Shown one piece after another: positions 2,530-64,000 of a stretch of 64,000 nt of DNA; within the stretch, counting starts at the first letter, position 1; each line of letters begins with the position of its first letter. The notes under the pieces were generated by a model. It worked only from the letters and a program-made list of their open reading frames with translations. It had not been told where the DNA came from and did not search any database. The DNA is from Hexactinellida sp. DTS-2022 (taxonomy: Eukaryota > Porifera > Hexactinellida), in NCBI GenBank assembly GCA_028753945.1, contig JAPNXP010000003.1, positions 5,146,001-5,210,000 of the forward strand, read 5' to 3'. The position numbers were made by a program, and so were the translations under genes.

Positions 2530-3804
2530 TCAAAAGAATTGTAGACAAGCATTATTCTTCCCACACACAACTACAATCCGTCCTGCGTTATCTAGCACTA
2601 TTCCCCACGGGTTAATGAACTCCCCAATACCCTGACCATTCTTCCCAATCCTGTGTATCTCTTCTCCCTCCTGATTGAATACATACACACAGTGATCATT
2701 GTAGTCACTCATAATGATGTTATAGTCTCTGTCTATGTCGAAAGAGACCGAATTCTTTGTTTGCTTACCATTGCCACGAGTTATCAGTCTGTTGGTTAGA
2801 ATGTGATTTGAATCGAACACAAACATACACGGATCACTACCATCTAGCACCATTACTCTGTCTCGTGTAACCTTGATATCAAGTGGATATTTAAACTTAA
2901 TCTCACCTATTCCTAGCATGGAATGGAACTTGAGATCCTCTGTGAAGATTTGTACTCTGTTATTACCAAAATCACAAACATAGACATTGTTAGTTTTATC
3001 AGAGACAGCCAGACCGTGTGGATAGTTGAACTGAGCTTCTCCACTGCCTTCGCTACCAACACTCTTGATTAGTTTGCCTTCTAGCTCGTACATATTAATA
3101 CAATTACCACTGCCTTGTGTAACTAGCACGCTATTATGAGTTATACAGATACCTCGTGGCTTATTCATCTTCTCACTGAACATGAAGACATAGTCTCCGT
3201 TACAGGAAAATACTTGTACTAGTTGGTTGCTTTTATCCGCTATATAAATGTGTCCAGTCTTGTAATGCACAGCTATGCCTCTGGGACTATTCAGTTCCCC
3301 AGGAGCTTTCTGTTCGTTAGACTTCTTGCAGCAGTAAGCAGTAGGCAGCCGTTTAGCCTTGTAGTCCGGTACAAGAGGCTTCACTTGAGGGGAGAAAGTG
3401 CGGGTGGGAGATATCTTAGTCTGACCGTTAAGCTTAATACTTCCTAGCTGTTGGATGTCAGTCTCGAATAGATTGTCCCACTCGAACTCAATGCTAAAGT
3501 ATGTATCAGCAGTTAGCTCTGCTATCTTGTTGTCAATCGTAGAATGAATTATTTCATTTGTTTCTTTTACTTTATTCGATTTGAGTGTGTGTGAGCTGAT
3601 AGACTTAATGCTATTCAGAGATTCCACTAACTGGTTCATTTCCTGAGTTTTGCTATTGTACTCCGTCTCTATGCGATCAACTCGAGAGAGGAGGCTACTC
3701 TCTCTAACTCGCAGAGCTTCGTGAGACCTCTTGAAGCTGTCTCGTATGCTCTTACGGGTCTCTGTTATTTGTTCCGGGAAATTGTTATTCTGGAAGTTAG
3801 CCAT
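2530..3804 (-). CDS. Coiled-coil + NHL-propeller protein (NHL-B)
   Basis: Uninterrupted 424-aa single-exon frame starting at the ATG at 3804. Residues about 10-110 are a helical coiled coil (many Glu/Arg/Ser heptads). From about 160 to 424 there are six NHL-type blades; examples are 'SPRGIAVHYKTGHIYIADKS' and 'YPHGLAVSDKTNNVYVCDFG'. The last blade ends 'ACLQFF', which probably closes the propeller. The architecture resembles the C-terminal half of TRIM-NHL proteins without RING or B-box, so ubiquitin-ligase activity is not implied; a scaffold or binding role is inferred. NHL-A lies just downstream on the same strand and probably arose from the same ancestor. A truncated, frameshifted copy sits at 57811-58266. 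Confidence 0.85.
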   Translation of the reverse strand: MANFQNNNFPEQITETRKSIRDSFKRSHEALRVRESSLLSRVDRIETEYNSKTQEMNQLVESLNSIKSISSHTLKSNKVKETNEIIHSTIDNKIAELTADTYFSIEFEWDNLFETDIQQLGSIKLNGQTKISPTRTFSPQVKPLVPDYKAKRLPTAYCCKKSNEQKAPGELNSPRGIAVHYKTGHIYIADKSNQLVQVFSCNGDYVFMFSEKMNKPRGICITHNSVLVTQGSGNCINMYELEGKLIKSVGSEGSGEAQFNYPHGLAVSDKTNNVYVCDFGNNRVQIFTEDLKFHSMLGIGEIKFKYPLDIKVTRDRVMVLDGSDPCMFVFDSNHILTNRLITRGNGKQTKNSVSFDIDRDYNIIMSDYNDHCVYVFNQEGEEIHRIGKNGQGIGEFINPWGIVLDNAGRIVVVCGKNNACLQFF

Positions 3805-4495
3805 TCGATAGAATCGTATTTTATTGAAACTTAGGACTAATTAGATATTTATAGTATATTTTGTAATATATACTTTATGGAGTTCAAGTTACACCAAGAC
3901 TTCACAATTGTATTGTTAGATGCTAAGCCTTAATTTATTAATTCGCGTAAAACAGTTTGAGTTGAATAAACCAGGTTCCACAATCTAATTGTAATTTCCA
4001 ATCTCGAAAAATTGCTAGATCTGAGGTTCGAATTACTGTAGTTTTTTTATGCCAGTGTTCATAGCATGTATTCATCAGGCAAAAAAGAGTGCTCACACTA
4101 TATCAGGGGCCGTTAAAACATTACGTAACGCTTGAGATATGGGGGCAGATGGGCGAAAGCAGATTGAAGGGGTCAGACAAAGCAAGCAGTAGCATGACAA
4201 TTTCCCCCCAAATACACATACGTAATTATGATTTATTTAACAGGTACACAAATGTTTCAAATTTGTTCCGCTGATTAAGAGCACCCCAATTATTGTGCAA
4301 ACTCGATATATTCCGTAACTAGTTCATTCTTAAATTATCCGAACTGTATATTATCAGAATATATAGGCCTCAATAAGTTCGGATAATCAAGGTTGCATTG
4401 TAGTTTGCATGCAAAGAGTAATTAATGAGAATATAAACATATAAGCCAGCTGTATACACTCTACATAATGGTATGCAGGTTATTATTAATACAAG
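3805..4495. other. Intergenic, nothing recognised
   Basis: AT-rich spacer between NHL-B and the 3' end of the LRRC9-like gene. The short open frames here lack family signals. No inverted termini or target duplications were found. Confidence 0.4.
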
Positions 4496-16233: not shown

Positions 16234-17181
16234 TTTTATTAAATCTCGATTGTTGTTTGTTTGTTTGTTTGTCCGGATTGTATTAAAGTGATGGGGGAAT
16301 AGAAACCGCATTTATATATGAGATATAAACTAACTTCCAAATGTTATAATGGGTAAACAAATGTTATAGTAGGTAAACAAGTATGTTGAACCCGAATTTC
16401 GCGTTTATAAATTTGTAATATGAATATTTGTTGTTGTTGTTGTTTACACAAATTGGTAAACAAATTAATGAAAATTCAAAATCAACCTAGAAGTTAGCTT
16501 TCAACGGGTTTTATAGGTAAACAAGTATGCTGAAGACGATTTTCGCGTTTATAAATTTCTCATATGAATATTTGTTGTTGTTGTTTACACAAAATAGGTA
16601 AACAAATTAATGAAAATTCAAAATCAACCTAGAAGTTAGATTTCAACGAGTATTATAGGTAAACAAGTATGCTGAAGACGATTTTCGCGGTTAAATTTTT
16701 TAATATGAATATTTGTTGTTGTTGTTTACACAAAATAGGTAAACAAATTAATGAAAATTCAAAATCAACCTAGAAGTTAGCTTTCAACGGGTATTGTAGG
16801 TAAACAAGTATGCTGAACACAAATTTCGCGTTTAAATTTTCTAATATGAATATTTGTTGTTGTTGTTGATGTTGTTGTTTACTCAAAATAGCTAAACAAT
16901 TTAATGAAAATTCAAAATCAACCTACAAGTTAGCTTTCAATGGGTATTATAAGTAAACAAGTGTGCTGAACACGAATTTCGCATTTATAAAATCTAATAT
17001 GAGTATTTGTTGTTGTTGTGGTTTACACAAATAGGTAAACAAATTAATGAAAATCAAAATCATAACGTCCCTTTCTACCATTTCCATGGTAGAAAATGTG
17101 AGGAGTAAGGCCGCACAGCGGCCATTAACTTGAGGTGCGTAGCACCGATCTGTCGCAAAGCGACCGAGACCGAAGGGCTCG
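16234..17181 (+). mobile_element. Helitron-like element, type 2, carrying tandem satellite units
   Basis: Starts near TTTATTAAATCTCG (the intact 5' end TCTATATTATTAAATC is seen at 63448). It carries about five units of roughly 140 bp, each with ATTTGTTGTTGTTGTTTAC, GTAAACAAATTAATG and a 'cctagaagttagctttcaa' block, and ends with the GGCCGC..GCGGCC hairpin and GGGCTCG before T. It sits head-to-tail behind the type 1 element. No coding capacity. Confidence 0.6.
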
Positions 17182-31964: not shown

Positions 31965-32355
31965 TTTGTATATATGTTTTGTCGATTTTGTCAAATGTTG
32001 ATTTTACAAAATCAACATGTCGATTTTACAAAATCAACAAGAATCAACGGAACTAAAACAAGTGTTCGACTTTGGCTATATTACTCGGATAAGCCTTAGT
32101 TTTATTGCATTTTGTTCAGAATTCGTTTCATCCAAGTATATACCGATTTATATGAAGAAATTTTTTACCACAATGAAATTTTTTATTAGAATGAAAAAAT
32201 ATTCCAGGGTGATTTTGCAAAATCAACGAATAAAATATGTCGATTTTATAAAATCAACTATTTTACAAATTAAACTTAAGTTTGTATGTTGATTTTTAAA
32301 AATCGACATTTTGAATGTTGATTTTGTAAAAACGGCTATTTGACAAAATGGACAT
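31965..32355. mobile_element. Palindrome-array element nested in the transposon
   Basis: Second copy of the TGTCGATTTTACAAAATCAACA family; ends TATATGTTTTGTCGATTTTG and GACATAACATATAC. It sits between the 2A leader and the first transposase frame and probably disrupts the 5' gene structure. Confidence 0.6.
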
Positions 32356-32367
32356 AACATATACACA

Positions 32368-35055
32368 ATGGTACTATTAAGAAATGATCTCAAAAACTAT
32401 CGTGATCGAGATCGGCGATCCTTTTTTTCACAAAGGGCTAATGTCCTATATTATAGTATAATGACTAACGATTTTCTTTATATAGATGAAAATGAAAACA
32501 GACATAGGGATATATCAGATTTGATGGTAAAAGCTCTGATCAAATTAGATTACAGTTTGTCTGAAATTGATGATAACTTAAAACTCAATAATTGGCGCAA
32601 CCCTAGCTCAATCTGGGGTGAGTTATCAAAGTTAATCTTCCGAAGAAACATTAGCAAGTACAGAGGTAAGATTAGACTTTTGTGGTACAATAACAGATGC
32701 AATGTTCAAAATCGATTTAGAACGGCTGTATTGGAACACAAAACTTCATTAACTAATGTAAACACACAAAACAGCAATCTCAACTCTAAAATTCCCACAA
32801 CTCTGAAGGAAACAGGTTATTCGGATGTGAATGAAAATATAGATTCCAAATCTGCTTCCTTTTCTAATATTTCTTCTCAGATAGTTCCATTAAAAACATT
32901 TCATGAATCGACTACATGCATCCTTAAAGATAATCCATGTGAAATCGAGTGCAGTGCTTCAAAGTTTCATTTAAGCTATCAAGAATGGAGCCAAATAGAG
33001 CCACAATTTGCATATGGAAAGTTGCAACCCGAATGGACTAATATTTTTACTCTAAAAATAGCAGAATTTTACCCATTCTGCGTGTTGCTGTTTAAATACC
33101 ACCGAATTAACGTAAAGTACGAAAGTCTAAAATGTCACTTTCTAATTGCTGAAGCAAATTGCAAATTCACAAACTGCATTACACTAAAATTTTGGATTGA
33201 TAGAGCACCAGAAAATTGGGTGGATAGTGTGAAAGTAAACTTCCTAGTAAACGGTTCAATATCTTCTCAACATTTCGATAATAGAACGTCACATAGTCGT
33301 CACATTACTGGTGCAAAAAGGAAGGAACTGACTCTGAACATATCCTCATCCTCTCCCATTAATTATCACTATGACCAATTCAAAAGTTCTGAAATTTTGT
33401 ATAGCATGGTAATTTCAACAACATACATTCACAAAGTGTTCTACGAAAGATAAAATCACAGGAATTATCTAGACAACGGTTGAATAGCGATTTGTGGGTT
33501 GATATTGTTAGCACAAAGAAAACCTATGATATTTCCATAAAAGGAAATATTTTAAATGGTTATATCCAAAGCTTATCCAGAGAACCAATTGTAATTCACC
33601 TCTATAGTAAAGAGCAAATACTTCTGTTGAAACAATTCCAATCAAAGAGAATTTTTCTACACCTAGAAGCGACTGGCTCAGTTGTTCGCAAATTAGACAA
33701 AGGTCAAAAACTTTTTCTCTATTATGCTTTAACTATTAGACATCCTGAAGCAAAAATAAGTCCAATACCCCTTGCTGAAATGTTGAGTAGTGATCACACA
33801 AAATGTTGAGATTACACATTTCGTAAATAGATGGCAGTATACTGTGAAAAAAGTACTTAATAGGGAATTTACTCCAGCACTTATAGAGGTGGACTTTAGT
33901 TTGGCGATGTTGCATAGTGCCTGTCAAAGTTTTAATCACGAAAATTTGGAAAATTACCTCAAATCTTGTTGGCAAATTACTAACACCTCGTTGCAAATCT
34001 CGGAATCAAAAATAGAACCTAAAACAGTTATTCATATTTGCACAGCACATTTAATGCATCGCTTTAGTTACAGGCTTGATCGAACAATGAGGGTACAAAA
34101 AAACACCAAGAAGATTTTACTTTTTGCAATGGCTAGATTAGTTAATTCTACTACATTAGAAGAATTAAGACACCTGTTTGTTGCCTTATCAATTTCCTGT
34201 ATTGCTAAAAAGCTATATCCAGAAGTTCAAAAATATATTGGTGATTTAGAAAAGGCTATAAATGGTGAAGAAGAACGAGAATATCTTGCTATTGATTACC
34301 TTGAAGATTTAAATGAAGAACTTCCCAATGATCTAGGTGATAGCTTGACATACAAAAGGAAATCTCCTTTTGGAAAATATTTCGAAAGAGAATTAACTAA
34401 TTGTCAGGATTTCATAGATAAGATGGAGGAAACTTATTCAGGGAGACACGATTTCGAAGAAAACTCCCGTTATTTTCTTCCTAAACTACCAATCTTTTTA
34501 TCTACCCACTATATGCCTATCTGCCCCCTCTGGACAGGTTTGATACTCTGCCGCCTATCAACATCAGAACAAAATCTTATGAGTAAATATTCAAATGCAA
34601 TCATCGAAAATTGGATGAGAATTTTGAAAAAAAATATTTTATGTAACGAAATTAAAATGACACCAGCAGATTTCATAAGGAAAGTTCATGAAGGGATTCA
34701 AGGTAGATTAAAAGCATTCGAGTTCGCGTTTTATCCAATAAGTTCAAAAATAATAAGACGAGTGAAAAATGACCTCACAGATAATAGTCAGATTGAAGAA
34801 GTTTGGGATAAGCGAAAGAGAAAGAAAAAGAGTTACTTTGATCGCTATAACATATCAAACAAAATTACAAAGAATATTGGAAAAAGACGTAAAAATGAAT
34901 TTTCTCCAATTAAAAAAATACCGAGAAATACCAAAACTTCAACAAATCAATTGATCTCTAAATCGCATTCAAGTATATGTTCAAAAAAGATTAGCGAAAA
35001 CATTGAACTTTTAAGTGATGTCAGTGATGATGAGCCTGTAGTGATCAATAATTAA
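32368..35055 (+). pseudogene. MULE-like transposase, frameshifted
   Basis: Three adjoining frames read as one protein. Part 1 (32368-33453) has an N-terminal domain and a putative zinc/recognition region (C-x3-C...H-x3-Y, then 'CKFTNCITLKFWI' and 'SRHITGAKRKEL'). Part 2 (33480-33809) has 'IFLHLEATGSVVRKLDKG', where the family typically has Asp in 'DATGS'; here it is Glu. Part 3 (33790-35055) has 'LIEVDFSLAMLHSACQSF', 'IHICTAHLMHRF' and 'SNAIIENWMRILKKN', which may supply the remaining acidic residues, and ends in a Lys-rich tail. The frame shifts near 33445 and in an A-run near 33803 (one extra A). The frame lesions and the Asp-to-Glu change suggest an inactive copy. Confidence 0.65.
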
Positions 35056-35058
35056 ATC

Positions 35059-35688
35059 AAGGTTTATCCTCTAGGCGAATTCTGTCCGATAGATTCTAAA
35101 TGGCATAAAGAAAAATGTAAAGTATTGAACTTAACATTTATATCCGGAATTCTTTTTGAGAATCAGTCCTCAATAAAGAATCTTGACATCCGCTGTCTTG
35201 CACCTTGGAAAGAGAAAAGGATAGCTCCCGATGGAAACAATTTGTTTAGTTCCTTGTCATATATTCTCACAGGTAATGATCGCTCCCACAAAGAAATCAG
35301 AATATTATTACTAGAACATATGAAGGGTTTTTATCGAGACATTTGTACAAGATACTGCAATTCACATTACGATCTACTACCAGAAAACCGCTGTCATTAT
35401 GTAGATGACTATATAAGTAACAGTAGAATGGAATCTAATGGTAGCTGGGGTACTGACATGGAAATTTTCCTAACAGCCCAAATCTTAAAGACGGACATAT
35501 TCGTTTAGAGAGACAATTTCCAAAGCTGGAACAAGTTTTCTGGATATGGGTTTGTTGATAAACATAATGCACATGATCTAACTGAAAAAAGAATATACAT
35601 GAGATTGTGTTGGGATCATTATCAGCCTATAGTTAAAGTTGATAGAGTAGAAAACTGCAAGATTTACAAAGATTCTCTAAATTTTTGA
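35059..35688 (+). pseudogene. OTU-type cysteine protease domain, in frame after the transposase stop
   Basis: Follows the transposase in the same frame after one TAA (35053-35055). The pattern of an OTU fold is clear: 'IAPDGNNLFSSLSYILTGN' (where active OTUs have D-G-N-C-L-F), then 'WGTDMEIFLTAQIL', and the His-containing end 'WDHYQPIV'. The catalytic Cys is Asn here, and a TAG at 35506-35508 interrupts the domain before the His region. OTU enzymes cut ubiquitin chains; this copy should be inactive. Whether the TAA was always present (separate ORF, readthrough) or is a mutation is unknown. Confidence 0.7.
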
Positions 35689-42998: not shown

Positions 42999-43428
42999 CA
43001 TGTAGAGGATCCGGATGGATTACGGATTTACGGATTTACGGATTTGGAATCCGTCAAAATCCGTAATTGACGGATTAGGAAAAAATCTCAAATCCGTTCC
43101 AAAATCCGTATAAATTGGATTTAGAATAGATTTTGAAATTATTCTCAAATCTATCAAAAATCCTTTATGGTAATATGTTATAATGGATTTTTGGAAATTC
43201 GAATGGAATTCGGAAATCCGTATGAATTTGGAATCCATATGGATTTTATTAGAATTTAATAATCTGCAATTGAGAGAGGGTCGTATGGATTACGGAATTA
43301 CGGATTTCAAATCCGTAATTCACGGATATGGAACGGATTTGGAATTTTAATTCTAGATGAGATGGATTATGGAGCGGATATGGATACGGGTTCCGATCCA
43401 TTCGGATCCTCTGGTCTCACTCTCATGG
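42999..43428. mobile_element. Element with TAGAGGATCCGGATGG terminus
   Basis: Splits the inverted copy of the dispersed sequence (42998 continues at 43429). Inner sequence repeats ACGGATTTACGGATTTGG and complements. Flanks TCTCATG on both sides may be the target duplication, although the two ends are then not symmetrical. Confidence 0.55.
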
Positions 43429-43640: not shown

Positions 43641-44242
43641 TACTAACACTTCAGTTCAATTGAAAGTGTTATATAAATATCTTGCTATTGTTATAAACTT
43701 CATAAACTTGAGATTTTAAGTCATTTTTTCCAATATCCATGAATATGTGTCCCTACCACGTGCCACTTGTAGTACACGTGGGACAAATGGGAATGTGACT
43801 GTATTTCAGTGGAAAATAATCGAAATGGTTAGAAAATAAGCACCTATAGTAATTCGACCATGTGGTATTCAAATCTTAAATCAGAATTTGTATATTCTAA
43901 TTCTCTCATTATGATCATAAGTTGTATATTTCATTATCAACACCTCCATAAAATGTAAATTAATATTGTTTTGGTCAACTTATCGTTTTAAGTAAACATC
44001 AATGTTGAAGCATCTACAAATGTTATTATCGTGCTAGAAGCTCGAATGTATGAATACAAATTATTATTGTTTAAATCCTTTTGACCGTTTAGTGTATTTT
44101 TAGATTTTCAATAGTGACACTTATGTGAATTTGAATCTTATATCTATATTAGTCAACATCCCTGTCAACATCCCTTAAACAACTTATTCCCCTTATTATT
44201 CGCTGATTATACGATATAAAGGTTGTGCTAGCATATATGTCA
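43641..44242. other. AT-rich spacer
   Basis: No gene, repeat or element end recognised upstream of the ribozyme region. Confidence 0.4.
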
Positions 44243-44445
44243 TGATGGCCGACAGGAGTGCGCTAGAGGGATCCTAGCGTAGGTGAGTCGTACGGCCTGA
44301 GAAGGCATACGGTATGGCTCACTGGTAACTAGAACTGGAGTAGACCAGTTGTAGTGTGGTCGAGGGTTACCCTCCTGATGAGTCCTTGTGATAGGACGAA
44401 ACCACTACCCATCACACGTTGCTCTCGGTGAGTGTGGGATACATA
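44243..44445 (+). ncRNA. Structured RNA region surrounding a hammerhead ribozyme
   Basis: Consecutive hairpins: CGCTAG/CTAGCG at 44261-44266 and 44274-44279; GTGAG/CTCAC closing a branched helix at 44283-44322 with inner CGTA/TACG and GCCT-GAGA-AGGC; AACTGG/CCAGTT at 44333-44350; then the hammerhead; then a CACAC/GTGTG stem at about 44413-44437. The density of stems is far above the AT-rich surroundings. No second copy was seen in the window. Confidence 0.6.
44351..44408 (+). ncRNA. Hammerhead ribozyme, complete catalytic core (type III topology)
   Basis: Core elements are all present in order: cleavage triplet GTC at 44359-44361; stem I GAGGG/CCCTC (44362-44366, 44370-44374) closed by TTA; CTGATGA at 44375-44381; stem II GTCCT/AGGAC (44382-44386, 44393-44397) closed by TGTGAT; GAAA at 44398-44401; stem III T360/A401 then GTGG/CCAC, with a 2-nt bulge and GTA/TAC beyond. 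Stem III is open, hence type III topology. Self-cleavage is expected after C44361. Genomic hammerheads are known from retrozymes, SINE-like repeats and Penelope elements; which applies here is not clear. Confidence 0.85.
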
Positions 44446-45000
44446 TTACGGTGTCTCATGCTCATCACATATATCTTAGCTTGAATGACCCAACAAAGGA
44501 ACATTTTATAGTAGAGCACTTTTTGAGATGTCTTATGGCAAAAAAACTGATTTTGTTGTTGTTTGTATAATGTAATTAACTGTAACGGATTAACGTTAAC
44601 TTCCGTTGTATTTTTAACGTATTAACGAATTAAATGTTAACGAAGTTAACTTTTTGATTAACTGTGCCCACCTTTGTCCGTTTGTATAGCTGTTGTATTC
44701 CTATATGATTTCCCATAATATAAACAATAATTGAATATATATACTATAGACCAATAAAATTCAACCTTACATTTGTGTTGGACAATTTAATAGTCATACC
44801 CAGTGGCGTAGCCAGCCTCGAGTGATTGCTCGGACAGAGAGAGAAGTTTCCAGGGCCTGTGCCCCCCAGGCCAATTCGCGTTAATTTCAATTCGCGTTAA
44901 TTTCATGGAGCGTAAATTTCATGGAGCGTTAATTTCCGTCGCGTTAATTTCATGGTGCGTAAATTTCCTATAATAAGGTAATTATTAGTTTGCAATTAGT
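44446..45000. other. Region between ribozyme and propeller gene
   Basis: Contains a TTAACGTTAAC-rich patch at about 44575-44665, a hAT-like end CAGTGGCGTAGCCAGCC near 44801, and repeats of GCGTTAATTTCATGG at about 44876-44970 (also found at 57405-57530). These may be parts of a decayed element just upstream of the gene. Confidence 0.4.
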
Positions 45001-46207: not shown

Positions 46208-46384
46208 CGAGCCCTTCGGTCTCGGTCACTTTGCAACAGATCGGTGCTACGCACCTCAAGTTAACGGCCGCTGTGAGGCCTTACTCCTCACATTTTCTAC
46301 CATGGAAATGGTAGAAAGGGACGTTATGATTTTGATTTTCATTAATTTGTTTACCTATTTGTGTAAACAACAACAACAACAAAT

Positions 46385-49140
46385 ACTCATATTAGAATTT
46401 TATAAATGCGAAATTCGTGTTCAGCACACTTGTTTACTTATAATACCCATTGAAAGCTAACTTCTAGGTTGATTTTGAATTTTCATTAAATTTTTTCAGC
46501 TATTTTGAGTAAACAACAACAACAAATATTCATATTAGAAAATTTTAACGCGAAATTCGTGTTCAGCATACTTGTTTACCTATAATACCCGTTGGAAGCT
46601 AACTTCTAGGATGATTTTGAATTTTCATTAATTTGTTTACCTATTTTGTGTAAACAACAAGAACAAATATTTATATGAGAAATTTATAAACGCGAAATTC
46701 GTGTTCGGCATACTAGTCTACCTATAATACCCGTTGGAAGCTAACTTCTAGGTTGATTTTGAATTTTCATTAATTTGTTTACCTATTTTGTGTAAACAAC
46801 AACAACAAATATTTATATGAGAAATTTATAAACGCGAAATTCGTGTTCGGCATACTTGTTTACCTATAATACCCGTTGGAAGCTAACTTCTAGGATGATT
46901 TTGAATTTTCATTAATTTGTTTACCTATTTTGTGTAAACAACAAGAACAAATATTTATATGAGAAATTTATAAACGCGAAATTCGTGTTCGGCATACTTG
47001 TCTACCTATAATACCCGTTGGAAGCTAACTTCTAGGTTGATTTTGAATTTTCATTAATTTGTTTACCTATTTTGTGTAAACAACAACAACAAATATTTAT
47101 ATGAGAAATTTATAAACGCGAAATTCGTGTTCGGCATACTTGTTTACCTATAATACCCGTTGGAAGCTAACTTCTAGGATGATTTTGAATTTTCATTAAT
47201 TTGTTTACCTATTTTGTGTAAACAACAACAACAAATATTTATATGAGAAATTTATAAACGCGAAATTCGTGTTCGGCATACTTGTTTACCTATAATACCC
47301 GTTGGAAGCTAACTTCTAGGATGATTTTGAATTTTCATTAATTTGTTTACCTATTTTGTGTAAACAACAACAACAAATATTTATATGAGAAATTTATAAA
47401 CGCGAAATTCGTGTTCGGCATACTTGTCTACCTATAATACCCGTTGGAAGCTAACTTCTAGGTTGATTTTGAATTTTCATTAATTTGTTTACCTATTTTG
47501 TGTAAACAACAACAACAAATATTTATATGAGAAATTTATAAACGCGAAATTCGTGTTCGGCATACTTGTTTACCTATAATACCCGTTGGAAGCTAACTTC
47601 TAGGATGATTTTGAATTTTCATTAATTTGTTTACCTATTTTGTGTAAACAACAACAACAAATATTTATATGAGAAATTTATAAACGCGAAATTCGTGTTC
47701 GGCATACTTGTTTACCTATAATACCCGTTGGAAGCTAACTTCTAGGATGATTTTGAATTTTCATTAATTTGTTTACCTATTTTGTGTAAACAACAACAAC
47801 AAATATTTATATGAGAAATTTATAAACGCGAAATTCGTGTTTGGCATACTTGTTTATAGGGATCGACCGGGATAAGATTTCATGCCGGGATTGTCAGATT
47901 TTTGCCGGGATTCCCGGCTTGCCGGGAATTTGCCGGGAATAGTACATAAACGTACTTAATACACAATTATGTACTAGTATAGTAGTATGAGAATCTAAAT
48001 GTCACATTAAGAAGTTCAACTATTATTTGGAACTATTTGAAGGTACTATTAGTATGACTAAATAGGATGTACATCATTTATAGATATGTACGTATGTATC
48101 TACATTGCAATGTATTGTCTCGTCTATAATTGTCAATCAAATGTTTTGGTTCAACACGTAAACTATTGATTCAACAAGTTGTAAACTATTGATGTTATGA
48201 GTGGACTGTATTTCTGAGGATAAAGGTAGCCTTAGGTAGGGTTTCGTCCTAAAGAATGGTCGGGATTCGGAATAGCGGGGTGTCCAGAATTCTGAAATAA
48301 TTTAATTTTAATGTCTATAGTGTATAATAAATAAGTTCATTGGCGCGCCCCGTCAGCCTTCTGTAAAAGATTCCAGAAAATATATAAATATATACAGAGT
48401 ATGAAATCACGACTATTTCAATCAAGAATAGCTATACTTTCCCGATATTTTATCAATAATTTACTGTACGAGTATACCAATTGGGGAATACCGCTTAACG
48501 ACCACCTCAGAATAAAATCATCCCGATATTGCTACTACTTTTTACATTCTCGTTCAACCACTTATTAACATTAGTATTAATTGATTTTGGAATTACGACC
48601 ACGCCGCTATTCAAAATTTTGGCCATTGTATATGAACGAAAAATTATTTTCAAACACAGAATCACGCCCCGTCAGCTTTTGGTAAAATAATTAATAACTC
48701 TACGCCTATGAATACGTTTAACCATAAATTAATTAGTAGAATATAAATATTTCGAAGTTCCACTACATAAAGGTTTTAAAAATTCCCGGCTAGATCCCGG
48801 TAAATTCAGGCGTTCCCGGCAAAATAACCAAATCCCGGCAAAACCGGGGATTAACCGGGATTCCCGGTCGATCCCTACTTGTTTACCTCTAATACCCGTT
48901 GGAAGCTAACTTCTAGGTTGATTTTGAATTTTCATTAATTTGTTTACCTATTTTGTGTAAACAACAACAACAAATATTTATATGAGAAATTTATAAACGC
49001 GAAATTCGTGTTCGGCATACTTGTTTACCTATAATACCCGTTGGAAGCTAACTTCTAGGATGATTTTGAATTTTCATTAATTTGTTTACCTATTTTGTGT
49101 AAACAACAACAACAAATATTAATATGAGAAATTTATAAAC
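46385..49140. repeat. 142-bp satellite array
   Basis: Period fixed by the spacing of AATTTATAAACGCGAAATTC (46681, 46823, 46965, ...). Units alternate small variants (ACAAGAACAA/ACAACAACAA, GTCTACC/GTTTACC), suggesting spread by unequal exchange. Each unit contains TGTTTACC twice and GTAAACAA once. Interrupted at 47857-48877. Confidence 0.9.
47857..48877. mobile_element. hAT-like element inside the satellite
   Basis: 1,021 bp, termini TAGGGATCGACCGGGA and TCCCGGTCGATCCCTA, duplication CTTGTTTA at 47849-47856 and 48878-48885. Subterminal CCGGGA repeats. No coding frame. Terminus close to the TAGTGATCGACCG family at 11262. Confidence 0.92.
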
Positions 49141-52158: not shown

Positions 52159-54401
52159 TTAATAATTTTCTTCTTGTAACTTTTCTCTCCGTCGAAGACA
52201 TCCAATCTGTTGCTCACGATCACTGAAGTGGTTAACTTGAGCTTTTAAGAGAGTATTAACTAATGAGCATAGAGCTACATTGTCTTCAGCAAGAGGATGA
52301 TCAAAAAATGAAAGGACTTTAATTACATATGTTCGACAACTATTTTTGGCCCTCGGAAGTAACTCAAGAAGATTAACAGCGTTTTGAACAAAACAAGTCG
52401 TGGACAATGTTGGCACTCTCAGCCCTCCCCTGTCGAGTTCTTGTAGAAATCAGTAGATACTAGGTCCCCTTCCATTTCACCATGCTTAAATGTTATATAT
52501 CCAGCAATGAACACTACTTTGTGCTTTAAAGTATTGCCTGAATCAAGGAGGAGTTGCGTGTCCTCAATACTGATCTCTTGCATTAGCTCTATATCTCCCA
52601 AACTGACTGGCGTTGTACATTCTGGGCAGGTAAACTCTGGAATTCCTTGAGGAATTATATTGTATTTCAGCAACTGATGTAATCGCTGTGCTTTGGCTGC
52701 TGAGAGTACATCAACAATATCAATGTAAAAGTTTCCTCCATTGCGCTGTCTGGCTTGTCCAAAGAATTTTTCCAAGGGGTCTTGTGAGAAAACCGCAGGA
52801 AGAACATACTGAAAATTGTGGTAAGTCAATAGATAAGTGGCGGCTACAATACTATATTTTGTTGTGATCTTAAAAGCATCGGCAGTGAATTGAGTAAGCT
52901 TTTTTTGTCGAAATCTTCCTCCTTCCCATCGACAGGAATCTATAACGTCGCACATTGCTGATAGTTTGCTAAAGTTGTCACAATTCAACGTCCAAGGTGC
53001 ACGATGTGGATCACGAAGATGTATTGTGCTAAACTTGTCTTTTACGTTCATCATTCTGAACCAGTTTGTTACCAATGTGAGAAATTTAATAGTTCCCTCC
53101 TGATAATCGATAGTACCAAAGGCTTTGAATGCTGCAATCGTCTTTTCATGAAAGACTTGACATACCAGCGGTACGCTCTGTCTTTGTAGTGGTTTAGGAA
53201 AGACTGAGGTGTGAGTAAGCTTTGTAAGACGTAATGGCATCTTCTTATCTTCCTCATATAGAGCTTGGATGTCTCTCCAACATGCCAGATATTCTACACC
53301 GTTCTCTTTAAAGGACAATTCCTTGGTCTTCTCAGTTATCCAATTATTCCTCAAAATTTTTAGGATATGAACGTAATCATAAATTAAGTACATATCGACA
53401 CCGCATACCTCCACTTTCCCAGGACCACCAAGTAAGCGGTACACACCTTGATTTAGCGGACAGTTATCACAGATAAAGGATATTGGCTGGATATCCATTT
53501 TTCTCAATCCTTCAATTGTTTCCATCAAAATATCTCGAGCCTTCGCTGCATTTATTTTAGAAACTGGATGAACACCAATCACTAAGCGTGGCCCTCCGTG
53601 ATGGCAAACAATTTCTATACAAAAGGCAGATGTAGCAACTGCCTCTGTCGCATTAGTAGCATAACCAATGATGTGGCCTCCTGTTAAGCGCGTGGTCTTC
53701 AATAACTTTACTTCATCAAATAGTATGTTAACAAGACGTTGCTCAGATTTCAGTACTTTGAATATGAGCGGCAGATTGGTGTTTGCGAAACTACGAGACA
53801 TTAAATTTCGAACAAGTTGTTCCCTAGGGAGCTTTATTATTCTGTAATTTCTTATCATCCTGTATGCAGCTGGAGATATACAAAGAAGTTCTCCAGCAAA
53901 AATCAGTAGGTGTTTTGTATACCGGATATTATTATCTGAAATCAAGAGAAATTCTAGCTGGGTCTCTAGGAACTGAAAATGCGTTGATTCTTGTACATCT
54001 ATTGTCATTTGTTTCAACTCTTCCATGGCCTTTAACAAATGATCATTGTTAGAAGTTTCATTATTATTAACAATCGAGAGGATTTCTTCCATCTGAGACC
54101 ATCTATGAAGGAGGCTATTCTTCTGTAGATTGAAAATTATCTTTGGAATTTCATAACCATTCTTTTCTACCTTAGACAAATGAAGAAACCCAAAGCAAGA
54201 CTCTACTTTCTTAAAGCAGAAATACTGAACCACTTTACTCCCTAATTCATCCACCATGAAAACTGTCAATTTTTCTCCGTGATTTCTAACGCTGAATGAT
54301 GTGAATCGTCTTTCAAATTCTTCTGCAAAAGTGGTGAAATCTAAGATCTTATGAGGAAAGCGACCAATTGGACCTCCTACATATTTTAAAGGTGTGCCCA
54401 A
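52159..54401 (-). pseudogene. P-element-like transposase body, frameshifted
   Basis: Main frame 54401-52419 (about 660 codons; the first conventional start is unclear because it follows an in-frame TGA). Motifs: 'CISPAAYRMIRNYRIIKLP', 'VNILFDEVKLLKTT' (acidic residue), 'ISFICDNCPLNQGVYRLLGG', and 'FSQDPLEKFFGQARQRNGGN', typical of P/THAP9 transposases with RNase-H-like core. Near 52440 the frame shifts: '...NSTGEG' stops while the next frame reads 'ELDRGGLRVPTLSTTCFVQN', the expected C-terminal continuation to 52159. So one frameshift and the TGA near 54408 inactivate it. Confidence 0.85.
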
Positions 54402-54528
54402 GTCTTGTCAGAAGCAGTCTATTACACATCCAAGGCCAACAGGAAAGACTACTTCTGCTGTAAGGGATAAATTGCAGAGAGAGTATATTGACAAGTGTGA
54501 CCCGTACAGTTACCCATTTGCATTCAAA

Positions 54529-54702
54529 GTGTGATGAACAGACAAATATCTCTTTTCGATCTTTAAGACTCCCAGGTTCATTAGGCATGGCCTCAATCCA
54601 TCTTGTCCTTTCAACCCTATCTATGGGAAAACTGACAACTTGACTATATGGTTCCCCATCATAGTTACCACGACAGTTGAAAGCTGCACAACGTTTTGGC
54701 AT
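54529..54702 (-). CDS. THAP zinc-finger exon of the P-type transposon
   Basis: Starts with the ATG at 54702: 'MPKRCAAFNCRGNYDGEPYS' with C-x4-C spacing, then FPIDRVERTRWIEAMPN and 'FVCSSHFECKW', giving the C2CH zinc site and AVPTIF-type end region of THAP domains, which bind the element ends. The donor GTAACTG directly follows the Trp codon, and a pyrimidine tract with AG lies near 54455, so a short intron is likely. The frame beyond the donor is intronic. Confidence 0.75.
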
Positions 54703-54856
54703 GATTACTGTGCTTGTGAGATCATATGCTAAATATTGTAAATACGAAATAAAATGTAAAAACTAAGCATTATTATTCTTTACCATCAACATTTAGTCCG
54801 ATACTACTTTCTCCATGCTAACAATCATCTAATCGAATCCAAACTTGTAACTTATC

Positions 54857-55800: not shown

Positions 55801-56962
55801 TTTAAAGCAAACGCAGTAATGACAAATCCTATTTCGATTCTGTGTACCAATTTACTTTTGGGATTGAAAATAAAAATCCTCCATTGGAAATCAAAAGATT
55901 TTCTTCAAAATCGATATCAAAATGTTTTGGTACAAAATCAAGTGAGAGACAGCTGATTGGTTTATGACTCTCCTTGGAGTAGAACCATATTGGATAAGCA
56001 TTAGGCTCTTTAGCTATTATAATCAAGCGAGTTTCTGTGATTTTCAAATCCAGAGGAGAGAACATGTCTTTTCCCGAAATATGGGAATGGTAGCCTAAGA
56101 ACTTATTGAATCGAACTATTTTATCGTTTCCTGAGTCACAAACGTAGACATGACCATTTGACTCATCAATTGACAACCTTTCAGCATACTTTAGTTGATT
56201 TTCATAATTGTTTAGAGTAATTATTCTTTTTGGTACACCCTCGTTTCGAATTCTAAATTTCAGAATCAAATTAGAGTAACTTTGAGAGACGTACATTTTA
56301 TCTTTGTGAATAGCGATGCCATTAGGTTTTGCATGACTTCTTTCCCGAACTCAAACATAAAGTCTCCATCTTGGGAGTAAACAAGGATCCCACCATTTAC
56401 ACTATAAAAAGATACATATAGTCTCGATCGATGTGTTGTGATCAATGCACACACAATTAAATGAAACAACTGAATAAGGAAGGGACTTTCTCAAAATAGG
56501 AGATTTTTAGGATGCGTAATCAATCGTAGTTAATGGCTTGTTGCTCCCACCAATTCGACCAATGTTGACACTAAGAGTCCCCAGATCTGGCACTACCTCT
56601 TCGATATCCTCATTCCACTCAAACGAGACATCCAGACCTGAGATTTCCTTCCTCATCCCCTCGATCTCGCTGTCTAGCCCACTCAGGACTCTGCCCTGTG
56701 TCTCGCTAAGTAGGTTCAGATTCAGAATATCTCTGGAGCTCTGTTTGAGCTCTTCGAGTTTCCTGAGTGCCGCCTGGCTCTCCTCACTCAGGCGGTGGTA
56801 GCGAGACACAGCCTCTGCTAACCGCAAGAGCAGTTCATTCCTACGGGCGTTTATTTGGGTAATCAGACGATCGAATTCTAAGTTTATCTGTTCACGAGCT
56901 TCCTCTGATTTGGAAAGGAAGTCTTTATGCGAAGCAACAGTACTATCTGCTATCTGTGCCAT
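55801..56962 (-). pseudogene. NHL-A duplicate, multiply broken
   Basis: ATG at 56962 opens a coiled coil almost identical to NHL-A (only a few residues differ). The frame ends at a TAA near 56508 where NHL-A has Lys (AAA), then continues in pieces (56469-56266, 56296-55829) with an additional frame change near 56320. The end is cut off at 55801 by the P-transposon boundary, losing about 60 bp of the last blade. It retains the 2-nt (TCTC) stretch lost in NHL-A at 790-800. Non-functional. Confidence 0.85.
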
Positions 56963-57064
56963 TATAGCTATATTATAAAATAACTGCTAGGGGTTACCTT
57001 ACGTAACGCAAATTTCCGGATATTATCAACAGCCCCTTATTTATAAAGAAAGAGCATTCACAAT

Positions 57065-63447: not shown

Positions 63448-64000
63448 TCTATATTATTAAATCTCGATTGTTGTTTGTTTGTTTGTTTGTCCGGATTGTA
63501 TTAAAGTGATGGGGGAATAGAAACCGCATTTATATATGAGATATAAACTAACTTCCAAATGTTATAATGGGTAAACAAATGTTATAGTAGGTAAACAAGT
63601 ATGTTGAACCCGAATTTCGCGTTTATAAATTTGTAATATGAATAATTGTTGTTGTTGTTGTTTACACAAATTGGTAAACAAATTAATGAAAATTCAAAAT
63701 CAACCTAGAAGTTAGCTTTCAACGGGTTTTATAGGTAAACAAGTATGCTGATTTCGAATTTCGCATTTATAAATTTATAATATGAATATTTGTTGTTGTT
63801 GTTTACATAAAATAGGTAAACAAATTAATGAAAATTCAAAATCAACCTAGAAGTTAGCTTTCAACTGGTATTGTAGATAAACAAGTATGCTGAACACGAA
63901 TTTCGCGTTTAAATTTTCTAATATGAATATTTGTTGTTGTTGTTGTTGTTCACTCAAAATAGCTAAACAATTTAATGAAAATTCAAAATCAACCTAGAAG
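63448..64000 (+). mobile_element. Helitron-like element, type 2, running off the window
   Basis: Starts TCTATATTATTAAATCTCG after an A and continues as in 16234-17181 with satellite units. It lies directly behind the same tail that in the left copy is followed by a type 1 element. 3' end not in the window. Confidence 0.65.

Follow-up and report, generated by a model that had tools for sequence, protein, structure and literature searches.

Retrozymes are described in the literature from 2016 to 2024 in two settings, as LTR elements in plants and as type I non-LTR forms in animals. Plant LTR retrozymes, as presented by Cervera et al. 2016 (PMC4918200), carry a type III hammerhead in each LTR together with a short non-coding interior, a tRNA primer site, a purine tract and short fixed target duplications; solo LTRs are reported alongside them, and a shared LTR end and primer site linked them to Ty3/Gypsy elements. 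Animal retrozymes are described as type I and non-LTR (PMC7229834, PMC7761336, PMC11722881). Like the elements reported here, the metazoan non-LTR retrozymes of Cervera and de la Pena 2020 (PMC7229834) are short non-coding hammerhead units with many copies, some in tandem, but they are type I and, in that account, without LTRs, primer sites or purine tracts. Penelope-like elements and Terminons are likewise animal retroelements whose repeats carry a hammerhead, although theirs are described as minimal type I motifs in coding elements whereas ours are type III and non-coding. Type III hammerheads are themselves already known in animals, from dipterans, termites and HDV-like RNAs (PMC7936874); in that account those motifs have long stems I and II, and the termite examples stand alone, with no LTR element reported for them. 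A literature survey by titles and abstract openings, reaching few subscription papers and no bioRxiv preprints, found no report of an animal LTR retrozyme, and a type III LTR element is not stated in the available text of the cave-cricket satellite hammerhead papers and the 2011 survey.

The hammerhead considered here lies in a 64-kb stretch of Hexactinellida sp. DTS-2022 DNA, the whole of which we call the window. An earlier note on the window had claimed a complete type III hammerhead core at 44351-44408 in hairpin-dense surroundings. The Rfam model RF00008 (Hammerhead_3) bears this out, matching 44354-44407 (+) over its full length (model positions 1-54 of 54) with 57.1 bits (E 4.8e-10) against a cut-off of 48.5 bits, and this is the sole match at or above the cut-off within the window. 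Every part is where the note had placed it: the GTC cleavage triplet at 44359-44361, stem I at 44362-44374, the core CTGATGA at 44375-44381, stem II at 44382-44397, the core GAAA at 44398-44401, and the two strands of stem III, including the 2-nt bulge, at 44351-44360 and 44401-44408, all on the plus strand. The conserved core, the three stems, the open stem III and the covarying pairs assign 44351-44408 to the type III hammerheads and, with stems I and II of 5 bp, it has the common Rfam form rather than the long stems of the dipteran, termite and HDV-like motifs. RNA from the motif is predicted from its sequence to cleave itself after the GTC, at C44361. The short core pattern CTGANGA...CGAAA is found twice in the window where 0.77 is expected, and 18 of 100 shuffles reach two or more; being so near to chance, it leaves the case to be carried by the full RF00008 model, the copies and the covariation. 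As for the surroundings, the 232-nt element containing the motif has a folding energy of -94.5 kcal/mol (z -4.15), and its minimum-energy structure includes the hammerhead, whereas the opposite strand folds with a z of only -1.86.

The genome of the window comprises 112.4 Mb in 18 contigs, and within it the hammerhead is far from the lone motif that the earlier note had supposed. The search for copies which that note had proposed, scoring 40 of 316 first-look candidates, gave at least 49 matches to the stretch 44222-44480; a model hit and conserved copies, whose absence it had regarded as refuting, are thus both present. Genome-wide, RF00008 has at least 68 matches, 64 of them over the cut-off (68 of 12,319 candidates scored), and CTGATGAGTYYYTRNNATRRRACGAAA with at most one mismatch is found at 349 places (172 + 177) against none (0 + 0) for the reversed control. 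The type I model RF00163 gave no match in the genome search, and was likewise silent in 14 control genomes, so that its silence carries little weight; the exact hammerhead pattern was counted at 0 and 0 in viral and prokaryote contigs. GC content is 0.36 in the window and 0.39 across the loci compared. By their 3' ends most elements belong to one of three families, F1 (that of the window), F2 (...CTCATAACA) and F3 (TGTAGTATCGGGG...TTATTACA), while several fit none; the hammerhead is common to all three. Within 360 kb, at C1:13001778-13359811 (-), seven hammerheads on the same strand have an identical stem II, and regional duplication is possible there.

Constraint on the ribozyme was assessed in two ways. 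For covariation we compared 58 different 65-nt segments that contain the core pattern, leaving out only those that fell within 60 bases of the end of a locus; most of these loci had been picked by the hammerhead model or by place, and while the extraction pattern prescribes pyrimidines and purines in stem II, it makes no demand on pairing. All 58 were counted, including at least three with visibly damaged 5' halves. Over 15 pairs, 96.1% of cells are paired, compared with at most 63.7% when the partner columns are slid by up to three positions. Changes on both sides of a pair occur in 43 cells against 12.8 (sd 3.2) in shuffled alignments, a figure equalled by none of 500 shuffles, and are distributed over five pairs against 3.0 in the shuffles (17 of 500 as high). 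Variation was also compared along 30 distinct F1 units, drawn from L001-L030, chosen by whole-unit similarity and with identical units dropped, which differ from each other by 5.3% on average: 6 of 50 columns are variable in the hammerhead and 54 of 189 in the rest of the unit (p 0.017). A core G is altered in one unit, L026. The ribozyme is under constraint, with compensatory changes maintaining the hammerhead.

The F1 unit of the window occupies 44238-44469 (+), 232 bp reading TGTCATGA...TCATCACA, and is delimited by ends common to F1 copies, by the alignment, by a GC content of 0.52 against 0.33 in the flanks and by a 4-bp duplication. The latter is TATA, present at 44234-44237 and identically at 44470-44473, and single at empty sites. 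F1 copies start with TGT[CG]ATGA and end with TCA[CT]CACA, that is with TG...CA ends. An exact 4-bp duplication flanks 15 of the 31 F1 placements in L001-L030, against 0.9% for cross-paired flanks; the other 16 placements lack it, and duplications of 3, 5 or 6 bp are seen in none. These placements are partly dependent, with L006 and L008 sharing near flanks and L016 entering the count twice, as a long copy of 548 bp and as the unit inside it. L018 is a tandem pair, counted twice, with CTCC at both outer flanks. When the flanks of the window copy are joined, at least 39 further places in the genome match them over the junction (39 of 42 rows, with 40 of 69 candidates scored; the three remaining rows are the two halves of the window itself and one short piece), and the window copy has therefore inserted into a multi-copy repeat. 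Three of the 39 places were read (L091-L093), two showing a single TATA and one TGTA. Clean empty sites were likewise found for L019, in the window itself at 24030-23730 (95.7% over 301), and for L017, located in L020, whereas the joined-flank matches of L002, L014, L023 and L025 are gapped or ambiguous at the junction. The window's F1 unit is, then, an insertion with a 4-bp target duplication and TG...CA ends. Separately, L006-L009 are F1 units that pair the 5' part of one subfamily with the 3' part of another, a sign of recombination.

Other features of the window may be recorded here. The flanking sequence at 44138-44573 places the element within a dispersed repeat of which the genome has at least 39 further copies. 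A tandem repeat of 141-142 bp forms arrays, apparently in both orientations, at 16370-17062, 46326-47856, 48876-49140 and 63576-64000, and a cluster of short palindromic TTACGGAT repeats lies at 43020-43247, where a match to MIR4380 is weak (20.8 bits against a cut-off of 83). A broken-looking DNA transposon at 52419-54762 (-) comprises two overlapping frames, in which a THAP domain and pieces of a P-element-like (TNP-like) RNase H are found. Long frames at 32344-35508 (+) include a stretch that by eye resembles OTU-type transposon proteins, the first frame having no Pfam match. Finally, two coiled-coil/beta-propeller-like genes, near-identical by eye, stand 55 kb apart at 745-1713 and 55829-56986 (-), and an NHL-repeat protein at 2530-3840 adjoins a gene of this type. 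The THAP and NHL domains are in keeping with an animal genome.

The layout of F3 is an LTR of 222 bp, a tRNA-Ser primer site, a 149-bp interior, a purine tract and a second LTR, 594 bp in all, with 5-bp target duplications. In L082, the same place as L065, LTRs of 222 and 223 bp identical in 220 of 223 columns enclose the 149-bp interior, the purine tract GATAAGGTGAGAGGAG precedes the second LTR, and ACATG stands on both sides of the 594 bp. L085 (222/149/222) has LTRs identical at 212 of 222 positions and GTTAC on both sides. L083 again has ACATG on both sides, and its LTRs, alike in 184 of 239 columns, are mosaic, while in L084, with AATAC on both sides, the first LTR is cut to 27 bp. RF00008 matches both LTRs of L082, L083 and L085, and the unit from hammerhead to hammerhead, 372 nt, folds with a z of -4.79. 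F3 is accordingly a complete LTR element, with direct LTRs bearing type III hammerheads, TG...CA ends and target duplications; it is non-coding, given its 149-bp interior, and shares its ends with Ty3/Gypsy. We note in passing that L083 (1264-1873) has LTRs from two subfamilies inside a single 5-bp duplication, which resembles template switching.

The F3 interior begins, one base past the LTR, with TGGCGACGAAGGTGGGAT, which complements the 3' end of a tRNA-Ser(GCT) gene plus CCA. A T-arm pattern search found this gene in the genome; a tRNA-Ser pattern demanding a perfect acceptor stem found none. At the primer position L064 carries instead TGGTGCATTGGCCGGGAA, complementary to the 3' end of a tRNA gene of this genome, which we take to be tRNA-Gly, and the box of ACA plus TGGTGCATTGGCCGGGAA occurs with up to two mismatches at eight places in the genome, L064 among them. 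The corresponding Ser box, at the same tolerance, also has eight places. Four are the retrozymes L082-L085; the other four (L081, L086, L087 and L088) show by eye a gag-like reading after the primer site, and in their 3-kb stretches there is no CTGATGAGT and no Rfam hammerhead over the cut-off. L086 has reverse transcriptase (2.7e-21) and RNase H, L087 a zinc knuckle and aspartyl protease, and L088 a zinc knuckle, while the gag-like frames tested in L081 and L087 gave no Pfam hit. In L089, the stretch beyond L081, no frame reaches 80 aa, so the evidence for reverse transcriptase is that of L086. The start of the F3 LTR, TGTAGTATC, is found upstream in L081 and L088, with one change in L086, and not in L087. 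As judged from these sequence matches, the LTR end and primer site of F3 recur in Ty3/Gypsy elements, each of them covered here on the side of its first LTR.

F3 resembles the plant LTR retrozymes in features set out at the beginning, from the type III hammerhead in each LTR and the short non-coding interior to the primer site, purine tract and short fixed duplications, and the elements as a whole do so in their solo units and in an LTR end and primer site held in common with Ty3/Gypsy. They differ in belonging to an animal genome, in size (594 bp with a 372-nt unit in F3, against the 600-800-nt circles reported in plants), in primer sites that match tRNA-Ser and presumably tRNA-Gly rather than the reported tRNA-Met, in the 5-bp duplications of F3 and in the form of the long F1 and F2 copies.

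The latter are built from modules. Module A of the window copy, 44238-44408 (+), is the 5' part through the hammerhead, and module C, 44409-44469 (+), is the 3' part. In the long F1 copy L075, 548 bp with AAAC on both sides, the order is A-B-A-C: A, ending just past the hammerhead, is duplicated, and C is at the right end only, absent from the first repeat. RF00008 matches both repeats. L076 consists of A-B and a cut second A, while L077 has an inner deletion in its first A and a cut C. L063, in F2, has the A-B-A-C layout as well, with CTAC on both sides. The TGT start of F2 is preceded by the four bases of the right flank in 13 of 32 placements, a count that has no null, with varying starts, so that some may be due to chance. 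By-eye inspection of the interiors of L075-L077, L062 and L063 showed no primer site. GGAAGGGAACCTGA, purine only in part, precedes the second A in L075-L077, and purine-rich runs lie upstream of the repeated module in L075, L062 and L063. F1 does not show two full terminal direct repeats, the first repeat of L075 being without C; with that module missing from the first repeat and no primer site found, L075 and L063 are not canonical LTR elements. Region B of F1 is present at five places in the genome (six rows), which leaves the solo unit as the usual form.

The C modules of F1 and F2 are unlike in sequence, yet both fold into a terminal stem, of 16 and 14 bp respectively, that leaves ACA before the end; none of 200 mononucleotide shuffles is equally stable, and the C of F3 is without such a stem. 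In the window copy this hairpin spans 44427-44466 (+), stopping three bases (ACA) short of the 3' end, and is conserved across the F1 alignment with several G-C/G-U and A-U/G-U switches. F1 and F2 also include tail-to-tail inverted pairs. As separate observations, such inverted hammerhead pairs are seen in L062 (C1:7626800-7630900) and at C14:4219443-4219945, and L062 has five hammerheads across two long copies together with the inverted arrangement. A candidate LTR pair at C1:11801073 and 11806409, 5.3 kb apart, was rejected on account of the long tandem array between them (L061).

F1 and F2 might instead be DNA elements of the MITE kind, mobilised by a transposase with 4-bp duplications, in which a hammerhead shared with F3 by capture is idle in movement. 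The short inverted ends TGTGATGA / TCACCACA next to 4-bp duplications, the terminal hairpins, the tail-to-tail pairs and the failure to find a primer site in either family would all suit such an origin. An idle ribozyme, however, is hard to reconcile with the hammerhead being the least variable part of F1 and with a fold specific to one strand, and the TG...CA ends, the purine-rich runs upstream of the repeated module in L075, L062 and L063, the tandem pair L018 inside one duplication and the LTR nature of the F3 relatives likewise point elsewhere; we consider a MITE-like origin unlikely.

Units of 230-240 bp with occasional tandem pairs fit the class of ordinary metazoan non-LTR retrozymes (PMC7229834), which would be moved by Penelope-like or LINE elements. 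That the elements belong to this class is very improbable: their topology is type III rather than type I (RF00163 found nothing, the controls being silent too), their duplications are short and fixed, F3 has the LTRs, primer site and purine tract described as absent from that class, and the GC content of 0.52 compares with less than 0.50 reported for it. As to a chance occurrence or a single-copy host motif, the nearness of the short core pattern to chance frequency would be in keeping with it, but the 349 core matches against none reversed, the covariation and an insertion with empty sites refute it as a general account, and we give it a negligible probability. The window copy could nonetheless have been taken into host use later. 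The earlier note had offered a new non-autonomous retroelement or a host RNA; the former stands, given the target duplication, the empty sites, the copies and the sister LTR elements, while nothing was found in support of the latter.

What the window contains is very probably a solo unit of a retroelement, short, non-coding and non-autonomous, whose mode of action is that of the LTR retrozymes of plants. On this reading, we infer that transcripts would be cut at the GTC within each repeat, the unit-length RNA would close into a circle, the circle would be copied by a Gypsy reverse transcriptase and the resulting DNA would be inserted by a Gypsy integrase. Reverse transcription and integration are the weakest steps of this scheme for F1, since no primer site was found. 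Recombination between repeats, or else integration of a one-unit cDNA, would give rise to solo units. The window copy, being solo with one ribozyme, cannot by itself give a circle by two cuts and is most readily regarded as a resident product of its family. The plant retrozyme model leaves the A-B-A-C copies, the terminal hairpins and the inverted pairs unexplained, and since inspection by eye gave F1 no primer site and its long forms, A-B-A-C with a hairpin, are odd, we treat it as a related variant. A possible account of these forms is that A-B circles recombine to yield solo A-C units; alternatively, F1 may have lost its primer site while the hairpin was given a new role. More tentatively, and with doubts that outweigh our confidence, animals may own type III LTR retrozymes parasitic on Ty3/Gypsy from which F1 and F2 departed, leaving the tRNA-primed design for repeats of the 5' module and for an ACA-overhang hairpin (16 or 14 bp) in place of half the LTR and the primer site.

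If true, animal LTR retrozymes with matching Gypsy elements would erase the divide between plants and animals. One would then have to ask if the design passed between kingdoms or has two separate origins, and the finding would be relevant to the descent of viroids from plant retrozymes that has been proposed. The compact 112-Mb genome makes the retrozyme cycle testable.
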